NCBI RefSeq assembly: GCF_019753045.1 | Contig: NZ_JAIELN010000009.1 | Location: 1-64,000, forward strand | DNA length: 64,000 bases | Direction of reading: 5' to 3' | Source of the DNA: Hyphomicrobium sp. | GTDB taxonomy: Bacteria > Pseudomonadota > Alphaproteobacteria > Rhizobiales > Hyphomicrobiaceae | Part shown: positions 48,783 to 50,231 of the stretch, one piece after another | How the letters are laid out: each line of letters opens with the position of its first letter | How positions within the stretch are numbered: the stretch's first letter is position 1 | Position numbers and translations under genes: made by a program | Notes under the pieces: model-generated | The model's database searches: none | The model's input: only the letters and a program-made list of their open reading frames with translations | What the model was told of the DNA's origin: nothing

Positions 48783-49751
48783 ATGGCTGAAATTTCGCCT
48801 TTGAATGCAAAAACTTCCCGGAAAGAGTTCCTACGCGGTGTGACCTTGGCGGCGCTCCTGCCGCTGCTGCCGCGCGTTTCCCAGGCCGAAGCGCAGCAGA
48901 TCGGCGTGATCGAGATCGCGCCGGGCGTTTTCGTTCACGTCGGCCAATACGAATTGGTTAACAAGGAAAACCGCGGAAATATTTCAAATGCCGTCTGCAT
49001 TGTCGGCAGTTCAGCCGTCGCCGTAATCGATACGAGCGGCTCCTACGCGGCCGGTAAGGCTCTTCATGAGGCCATCTCGAAGATCACCGAGAAGCCCATT
49101 CGCTATGTCATCAACACCCACATGCATCCTGACCATGTACTGGGGAACGCCGCCTTCAAATCGGCAGGGTGCGAGTTCGTCGGCCACCACAAGCTTCCCG
49201 CAGCTCTCTATGCGCGCAAGGACAGCTACCTGGCGAACGCACGTCAGCGCATTGGCGACGAGGCTTTTGCCGGCACCGAAATCATTCCACCGACTTTGCT
49301 CGTGACCGACACGCTCGACCTCGATCTCGGTGGCCGGACGCTGACGCTCAGAGCGCGCCCCACCGCGCACACCGACAACGACCTGACGATCTTTGATTTA
49401 GCGACCAGCACATTTTTTCTCGGCGATCTTCTTTTCTCAAACCATGTACCGACGCTCGACGGCTCGCTCGTCGGGTGGATCAATCTCATCGGAGTGCTGA
49501 CGCAGGAAAAAGCCGATCGCGCGGTTCCCGGACACGGACCGAACACGATGCCCTGGCCCGATGCGATCAAGCCCGTAGAACGCTATCTGAAAGTTCTGGC
49601 GACCGACGTTCGCAAGATGATCAAGGACCGCAAAACGATCGAGCAAGCCGTCGCGACGGCCGGGCAGTCGGAGCGGGGCAACTGGGCTCTATTCGACGAG
49701 CATCACCCGCGCAACGTCACCGCCGCTTTCACCGAACTCGAATGGGAATGA
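48783..49751 (+). CDS. Quinoprotein relay system zinc metallohydrolase (MBL fold)
   Basis: A 322-residue exported metallo-beta-lactamase-fold protein. A Tat-like signal with SRKEFLRGVTLAALLPLLP precedes the metal motif THMHPDH (residues 112-118). Further histidines lie in TAHTDND and VPGHGP. It resembles the SoxH-related PQQ-linked family named quinoprotein relay system zinc metallohydrolase, known by co-occurrence with PQQ dehydrogenases and the CXXCW protein; substrate unknown. It is divergent from xoxF, and two tandem hairpins begin 9 bp after its stop. Confidence 0.87.
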   Translation: MAEISPLNAKTSRKEFLRGVTLAALLPLLPRVSQAEAQQIGVIEIAPGVFVHVGQYELVNKENRGNISNAVCIVGSSAVAVIDTSGSYAAGKALHEAISKITEKPIRYVINTHMHPDHVLGNAAFKSAGCEFVGHHKLPAALYARKDSYLANARQRIGDEAFAGTEIIPPTLLVTDTLDLDLGGRTLTLRARPTAHTDNDLTIFDLATSTFFLGDLLFSNHVPTLDGSLVGWINLIGVLTQEKADRAVPGHGPNTMPWPDAIKPVERYLKVLATDVRKMIKDRKTIEQAVATAGQSERGNWALFDEHHPRNVTAAFTELEWE

Positions 49752-49760
49752 TCTCTTCCG

Positions 49761-49799
49761 CGCTCGGCGGCCGGCTCGCGGAACGCGAGTCGCCGAGCG
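49761..49799 (+). ncRNA. Bulged hairpin element, copy 1
   Basis: Outer 9-bp stem (49761-49769 with 49791-49799), then a 4-base bulge GCCG on the 5' side only, an inner 7-bp stem (49774-49780 with 49784-49790, closed by G-U) and a GAA loop, followed by CAAAC. The same architecture recurs at 49815-49853 with compensatory changes. The G-U closing pair would be a mismatch if the minus strand were the RNA, which favours the plus strand. No family recognised. Confidence 0.7.
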
Positions 49800-49814
49800 C
49801 AAACGTGTAAACTG

Positions 49815-49853
49815 TGCCCGGCGGCCGGCTCCCCGCAGGGGAGTCGCCGGGCG
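49815..49853 (+). ncRNA. Bulged hairpin element, copy 2
   Basis: Same layout as copy 1, 54 bases downstream: outer stem 49815-49823 with 49845-49853 (first pair U-G), identical GCCG bulge, inner 7-bp stem 49828-49834 with 49838-49844, GCA loop, then CAAAC. Relative to copy 1, one outer U-A pair becomes C-G, and two inner G-C pairs become C-G, each with the partner changed to match. Confidence 0.7.
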
Positions 49854-49859
49854 CAAACA

Positions 49860-50231
49860 TTAGAAGCAGCGCAACTCGCCTTCGACTTGCGCGCGCCGCA
49901 GATTTTTCACCTTTTCCTGGAATTCCGGCGCGTGCGTCCAGGCAACGTTTTCTCCGCCTTTCAGACCGACGGACAACAGCGTTTCCGCCTCCTCATATTC
50001 GGCGTACGGCAAGATGGCCGCGATTTCGTCGATGGAGCAAGAGCACTTGTCGAGGTTGGTGCGGTTCTGGCCGTTGACCGCCATGCACGCGTAAACGTAA
50101 TCGGCGCGCGCCGTTGTTGGATAATCGTTGGGCGGCAATTCCTGAGCCGCGACACGTGACACCGCGGCGGAAATCAACAAAGCCGCCACGAAAAGCCCGC
50201 TGAATGCAAGGCTCGAGAAGCCCTTTGTCAT
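49860..50231 (-). CDS. Small secreted Cys-containing protein of the quinoprotein cluster
   Basis: A 123-residue protein with a clear signal peptide (FSSLAFSGLFVAALLISAAVSRVAA/QE). The mature part has cysteines in YVYACMAV, DKCSCSIDEIA and ELRCF, four in all, probably forming disulphides. IDEIAAILPYAEYEEAETLL suggests helices. No family recognised. Its start overlaps the end of the preceding 229-residue gene by 4 bases, so the two are translationally coupled, and position places it in the PQQ/XoxF accessory arm. Confidence 0.7.
   Translation of the reverse strand: MTKGFSSLAFSGLFVAALLISAAVSRVAAQELPPNDYPTTARADYVYACMAVNGQNRTNLDKCSCSIDEIAAILPYAEYEEAETLLSVGLKGGENVAWTHAPEFQEKVKNLRRAQVEGELRCF

Follow-up and report, generated by a model that had tools for sequence, protein, structure and literature searches.

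The two hairpins at the centre of this study are two members of a dispersed palindromic repeat and not a local RNA, because at least 104 copies occur in the own genome of the window (the whole 64-kb stretch of Hyphomicrobium DNA that was analysed) and further copies occur across the genus and the family. The repeat is REP-like, yet it is neither a GTAG nor a CGTC REP, and it apparently represents a family of REP-like repeats not described before from this methylotroph lineage, one that has no tag and no linked RAYT, carries a conserved bulge and is arranged mostly head-to-tail. A literature search, with most subscription journals outside its coverage, gave no report that by its title dealt with palindromic or intergenic repeats in Hyphomicrobium, and nothing on RAYTs together with extragenic palindromes in alphaproteobacteria. 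How REPs spread without a RAYT is an open question to which such a family is relevant. The features of the window are:

48783..49751, plus strand: converging gene upstream, metallo-beta-lactamase fold (PF00753), its stop codon ending 8 nt before the copy 1 hairpin
49759-49803, plus strand: copy 1, covariance model match of 71.5 bits
49760..49800, plus strand: copy 1 bulged hairpin, with 10-bp outer stem and 7-bp inner stem
49770..49773, plus strand: copy 1 one-sided bulge GCCG
49781..49783, plus strand: copy 1 apical loop GAA
49801..49804, plus strand: start (AAAC) of the copy 1 A-rich tail, by the tail consensus over 133 copies
49813-49857, plus strand: copy 2, covariance model match of 69.2 bits
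49814..49854, plus strand: copy 2 bulged hairpin, with other stem letters and the same box
49824..49827, plus strand: copy 2 one-sided bulge GCCG
49855..49858, plus strand: start (AAAC) of the copy 2 A-rich tail, by the tail consensus over 133 copies
49860..50231, minus strand: facing converging ORF of 123 aa, its stop codon 5 nt past the copy 2 hairpin

Both hairpins together fill the 108-nt gap between the convergent genes, of which the 123-aa ORF (49860..50231, minus strand) had no Pfam match. They are direct copies, 54 nt from start to start and 84% identical over 43 nt. Each folds into a 10-bp outer stem, the GCCG bulge, a 7-bp inner stem starting with a G-U pair and a 3-nt loop, just as the original prediction had drawn them; the minimum free energy was -71.3 kcal/mol for 131 nt (z -4.07), equalled by one of 200 shuffles. 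The compensatory changes claimed between the copies were also confirmed: from copy 1 to copy 2, one outer pair changed on both sides from T-A to C-G and two inner pairs from G-C to C-G, and one more outer pair changed from C-G to T-G. Beyond these two sites no further model match below E 0.05 was found on either strand of the 64-kb window. Comparison of the window with the Rfam models gave no match at cut-off, the best sub-threshold one (E 0.08) being sucA on the minus strand.

In the own genome (4.5 Mb) there are 50 occurrences of the 12-mer core GGCGGCCGGCTC against three of the reversed pattern, an abundance far beyond chance. A covariance-model search had been proposed together with the prediction; the model, built from nine copies, found at least 104 copies at E<=0.1 in the own genome (150 of 2717 first-look candidates scored), and copies were present in all 22 Hyphomicrobium genomes, own included, one of which (G004) held a single weak match (E 0.003). 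Matches at E<=0.01 were found in 28 of 60 genomes. Among the other genera of the family 6 of 14 genomes contained copies (3 to 53 matches), and at the same threshold the covariance model found none in the 24 genomes outside the family. In an order-wide draw, 10 of 297 genomes had copies at E<=0.001; nine of these belong to the family, and the one outside it has a single copy. All copy counts are lower bounds, with at most 104 candidates scored per genome in the 60-genome set and about 21 in the 297-genome set.

The repeat unit is composed of a bulged palindrome of about 42 nt and an A-rich tail of about 10 nt; the hairpin itself has 41 nt with 17 paired positions. The box GGCGGCCGGCTC / GAGTCGCC is common to the copies, its GCCG bulge being near-invariant, and the outer stem and the tip differ among copies yet remain paired. 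In a fixed-register reading of 156 core-anchored copies (143 distinct, unfiltered, orthologues included), the nine variable stem pairs were paired in 102-131 of the 143 distinct copies, against means of 65-91 and maxima of 84-101 in a shuffle control that ignores the relatedness of the copies; the weakest covarying pair was the foot pair 2-42 (102 against a shuffle maximum of 100). Since the core had served as anchor, the bulge was re-read from the right arm. The inner stem (CTC at 17-19 plus two of the three tip pairs) was present at 117 of 168 GAGTCGCC sites, and among these 117 the GCCG bulge was found 112 times and the G.T pair 116 times, in a test that is not fully independent as most loci were retrieved via the core or the model. 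In the regularly spaced regions only 2 of 30 GAGTCGCC sites had the inner stem, the bulge reading GCCG at the first and GCTG at the other. The 133 aligned copies with at least 13 pairs showed an A-rich stretch 3' of the hairpin (columns 43-51), a weak A excess 5' of it and no conservation outside about -8 to +52; a U-tract was absent on the element's strand, and the other strand had a weak T excess. The hairpin structure of the repeat is maintained and its variable stem positions covary. Selection on structure, as originally proposed, agrees with this covariation over 143 distinct copies and with a compensatory change in orthologues of the window pair; palindrome correction, in which one arm templates the other, could in place of selection account for part of the compensatory changes.

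The location relative to genes was sampled in 40 regions of 20 kb from the complete genomes G019 and G003, 39 of them picked for containing the core, and 108 model hits were found. Of the 95 copies at 33 bits or more, a simple gene caller placed 72 in intergenic gaps, namely 38 in convergent ones, 25 in co-directional ones (20 sense, 5 antisense) and 9 in divergent ones; 20 were intra-ORF and 3 at a region edge, with 11 of the 20 intra-ORF copies in one phage-like cluster where this gene caller is unreliable. After 40 regularly spaced regions were added, the share of gaps with a copy of at least 30 bits was 24/118 for convergent, 18/451 for co-directional and 2/163 for divergent gaps (gaps of 30-500 nt only, G019 and G003 regions). 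Many copies lie 2-10 nt from a stop codon. A similar gap distribution is reported for REPs in the excerpts of PMC3733652. Neighbouring copies within 150 nt were head-to-tail in 21 of 25 cases in the own genome and in 21 of 24 in the G019 and G003 regions; inverted pairs also exist, notably in the phage-like cluster.

A plus-strand RNA had been predicted from the G-U pairs, which is a weak argument. The G.T pair is indeed near-invariant on the element's strand, but in convergent gaps this strand follows the chromosome and not either gene. A sense-strand RNA was rejected: the 20 sense against 5 antisense copies in co-directional gaps came down by hand to about 13 against 5 loci, which is not convincing.

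The window pair is inherited. Genomes G003 and G019 contain both copies at the same place, with copy 1 decayed in G019, and Hyphomicrobium facile DSM 1565, the nearest named relative at the locus (neighbouring protein 94% identical; the own genome was possibly left out of this comparison), contains copy 2 and half of copy 1 at the orthologous site. Copy 1 is therefore dispensable. One outer pair of copy 2 is C-G in the window and H. facile, G-C in G003 and G.G in G019, a compensatory change with G.G as a possible intermediate. In other records the same gap held a 42-bit copy on the opposite strand (L178), matches of 22-24 bits only (L174, L176 and L177) or no match (L175). Four more distant Hyphomicrobium records (L179-L182) had no match and, by eye, terminator-like hairpins which follow an A-tract, the T-rich tail being clear in three and weak in L179.

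Turnover was also seen. At the terminase gap of the phage-like cluster five genomes have an extra copy that two others lack; the empty site has TTG on both sides, and insertion and deletion are not distinguishable there. No clear target-site duplication was found among the sites compared, of which only this one was clearly empty. One tandem array differs in its number of units, two in G003 against three in the own genome, and the flanks lie inside the repeated unit.

The gap hairpins of L179-L182 gave a by-eye hint that the element might replace terminators in general. A crude terminator match was found in 8 of 24 convergent gaps with the element and 32 of 94 without it (shuffled controls 4/24 and 4/94); because terminator matches are as frequent in the element-bearing gaps, a general replacement of terminators by the element is not supported. 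The tail is A-rich without a U-tract on the element's strand, unlike that of an intrinsic terminator, and a known RNA family was rejected for lack of an Rfam match at cut-off. An integron attC site has an inverse-core GTT at its 5' foot paired with AAC; the consensus of the 5' foot here, by eye, lacks GTT and does not fit this class.

REP-like repeat is the best fit of the three natures that had been suggested for the pair, with about 100 dispersed copies that are often adjacent to stop codons and enriched in convergent gaps. The general REP features are present: a high-copy, dispersed and mainly intergenic palindrome, enrichment at 3' ends and in convergent and co-directional gaps, and complementary changes. 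The original prediction had named scattered copies beside a RAYT transposase as the sign of a REP-type repeat; the dispersed copies were found, but not the RAYT. For PF01797 the own genome gave no match, and at E<=0.001 a single one of the 22 genus genomes had one, with 9 of 60 genomes matching overall. At the 12 PF01797 loci, inspected up to about 1.5 kb per side, there was no convincing copy (best E 0.02). RAYT mobilisation was rejected on the lack of a PF01797 match in the own genome, its presence in only one genus genome and the lack of a convincing copy at these 12 loci.

The excerpts of PMC2817692 and PMC3733652 describe GTAG-tagged REPs and their RAYTs with much in common with the Hyphomicrobium repeat: they are high-copy, dispersed, mainly intergenic palindromes beside stop codons, favour convergent and co-directional gaps, carry complementary changes and form local clusters. 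As far as these excerpts go, the Hyphomicrobium repeat differs in having no GTAG/GGAG head and no linked RAYT, and in having a conserved 4-nt one-sided bulge within a 41-nt hairpin. No GTAG or GGAG was conserved beside the hairpin foot in the 133 aligned copies, and the neighbouring copies are not mostly inverted (HH or TT) as in the GTAG REP/RAYT system. The CGTC-tagged alphaproteobacterial REPs, in the excerpts of PMC3733652, share the occurrence in Alphaproteobacteria, the lack of a dedicated transposase and the position near stop codons; by the same excerpts their stems have 8-9 bp, compared with 17 paired positions plus bulge here, and their HT dimers are negligible. The CGTC head is absent from the 133-copy consensus, which distinguishes the Hyphomicrobium repeat from them. 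Bradyrhizobium, which belongs to the same order, likewise has repeated stem-loops in 3'-UTRs, Br-REP1 and Br-REP2, the former first discovered between convergent genes (excerpts of PMC5082802). By consensus comparison with the sequences in these excerpts they are other sequences, without a GGCGGCCGGCTC box.

The pair is probably best explained as part of a REP-like family, untagged, bulged and RAYT-less, that occurs in Hyphomicrobium and other members of its taxonomic family and would act as 3'-end hairpins, the function being put forward by analogy. Transcripts entering a gap from either side would fold the element into a stable 3'-terminal hairpin, which might block 3'-exonucleases or weaken read-through, and such protection of 3' ends or weakened read-through may be the reason that the pairing is kept. 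REPs are reported to stabilise mRNAs and to have 3'-end roles in the excerpts of PMC5082802 and PMC3733652; the mRNA stabiliser that had been suggested for the window pair is consistent with this reported role, and its activity here is presumed from it. The conserved box and bulge may be where a protein lands, in the simplest case the enzyme spreading the element, and the tandem copies may come from local duplication. An ordinary set of intrinsic terminators of the genus, alike by descent, would fit the position in convergent gaps, and by eye the gap of L179-L182 does hold hairpins that an A-tract precedes, three of them with a clear T-rich tail. This origin is improbable, as the tail lacks a U-tract on the element's strand (the other strand having only a weak T excess), termination has no need of a letter-exact box at non-homologous sites, and gaps that hold the element show terminator-like matches just as often as the others.

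That the quinoprotein-relay gene has a genuine cis-regulatory or protein-binding tandem RNA, one merely resembling a dispersed repeat, is most improbable. Three genomes keep both copies at the locus, one of them with a compensatory change, but about 100 other copies lie beside unrelated genes, H. facile retains only one intact copy, nine further Hyphomicrobium-like records give at this gap one 42-bit copy on the other strand, 22-24-bit matches or nothing, and Rfam has no match at cut-off. The ligand-binding tandem RNA of the adjacent gene, among the original suggestions, is likewise not supported, since copies follow a range of unrelated genes and the Rfam comparison gave no family at cut-off. 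Purely selfish palindromes without a host role, whose pairing is needed by a mobilising enzyme or kept by palindrome correction, have a real but clearly smaller chance than 3'-end hairpins. Presence and absence at one site, the change of tandem copy number, the dense copies in a prophage-like gene cluster and a conserved bulge as expected for protein recognition would all suit them. The preference for convergent gaps beside stop codons speaks against them, though harm avoidance could also yield such a location, and so does the compensatory change which keeps the pairing at a fixed orthologous site.

The core is unevenly distributed between the chromosome strands. Counts on the plus and minus strands were 5/35 in G003, 9/23 in G018, 65/4 in G019, 8/26 in G007, 13/28 in G008 and 3/23 in G020, part of which is background, the reversed control pattern giving 2 to 7 hits per genome. 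The major core strand is opposite to dnaA in five genomes, all those where dnaA was placed. Arms were set by eye from the four-fold-site GC skew, the dif-like site (G003 1,795,155) and the octamer GCGCTGGG. In the 79 of 80 regions of G003 and G019 used for the arm test (dif region left out, dnaA orientation; the G019 region at 485 kb was assigned to arm A, though its octamers point to arm B), GCGCTGGG flips between arms from 38/2 to 0/30 in G003 and from 39/2 to 3/39 in G019, and GGGCAGGG from 12/1 to 1/6 and from 10/0 to 0/13. The core does not flip (2/14 and 1/10 in G003, 0/18 and 0/26 in G019). In whole-genome counts, where same-strand neighbouring copies within 2 kb were counted once, the core was opposite to dnaA in arms A and B in 18/21 and 13/15 cases in G003, 28/32 and 21/21 in G019, 8/10 and 10/17 in G018, and 10/15 and 11/19 in G008. 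In G018 and G008 the bias is weak: no arm of either reaches significance save G008 arm A (p 0.039, raw counts without the phage-like cluster), and it is therefore no genus-wide property; G003 and G019 share inherited copies and are not independent.

Replication direction was rejected as the cause for G003 and G019, where the KOPS-like GGGCAGGG and GCGCTGGG flip and the element does not. Gene direction was also rejected, as 35 of 38 copies in convergent gaps of the G019 and G003 regions are on the major strand, and inversion of a whole arm is unlikely with the KOPS-like motifs correctly oriented in both arms. The octamers of the window (0/8) and its skew (-0.046) suggest that the window elements are likewise opposite to the dnaA strand. 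An insertion bias set by the direction of replication or transcription does not predict a one-strand orientation, which makes its occurrence in two genomes an oddity that can be tested. A literature search, most subscription journals being outside its coverage, gave nothing on orientation bias and replichores with palindromic repeats. As a long shot, the one-strand orientation, kept through both arms and in convergent gaps, where gene direction plays no part, might together with the one-arm skew mark a genome-wide DNA transaction always running the same way, such as frequent unidirectional replication rounds or a budding-linked one-way DNA passage, with the element inserting or surviving in one sense only.

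GC skew was found to be strong in the dnaA arm and weak or near zero in the other in the sampled G003, G019, G018 and G008. In dnaA orientation the mean four-fold skew of the dnaA arm against the other was +0.110 against +0.003 in G003 and +0.122 against +0.039 in G019; plain GC skew was +0.031 against -0.016 in G018 and +0.049 against +0.004 in G008. In the sampled regions of G003 and G019 the octamer GCGCTGGG shows 93-100% polarisation with a flip at the arm boundaries, which makes it a candidate for a Hyphomicrobium motif that organises the chromosome or orients FtsK. Dif-like sites with three mismatches to an E. coli dif pattern were located at G003:C1:1795155-1795178, which falls at a skew step, and at G020:C1:3373776-3373799; at this three-mismatch limit G019, G018, G008 and G007 had no match.

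The genomes with the bulged element also contain, as a repeat of its own, one with CGTCATCCCGGC..GCCGGGATCCA. A repeat with the appearance of a CGTC REP (CGTCATCCCGGCGAAGGCCGGGATCCA) was noticed at L092:1353-1650, L096:5290-5900 and L098:8394-8800, and in places it adjoins the bulged element; its GTCATCCCGGC sites were on one strand in 25 of 30 cases in G019 and in only 7 of 11 in G003. L121 of the own genome (G000:C13:48000-67000) and L124 (G020:C1:599000-618500) contain dense copies around uvrA and ssb genes, and in L121 a SLATT-domain gene stands among them; this dense set is the uvrA-ssb region and not a phage-like cluster, the own genome's phage-like cluster being seen only via a match of L022/L024. 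The conserved prophage- or gene-transfer-agent-like head-tail cluster (L091:6453-19827 in G019 and the orthologous L132, L130, L122, L123 and L125) encodes terminase, portal, prohead protease, capsid, connector, tail and baseplate hub; we infer that it is a gene transfer agent, and dense copies of the repeat lie in many of its gaps on both strands.
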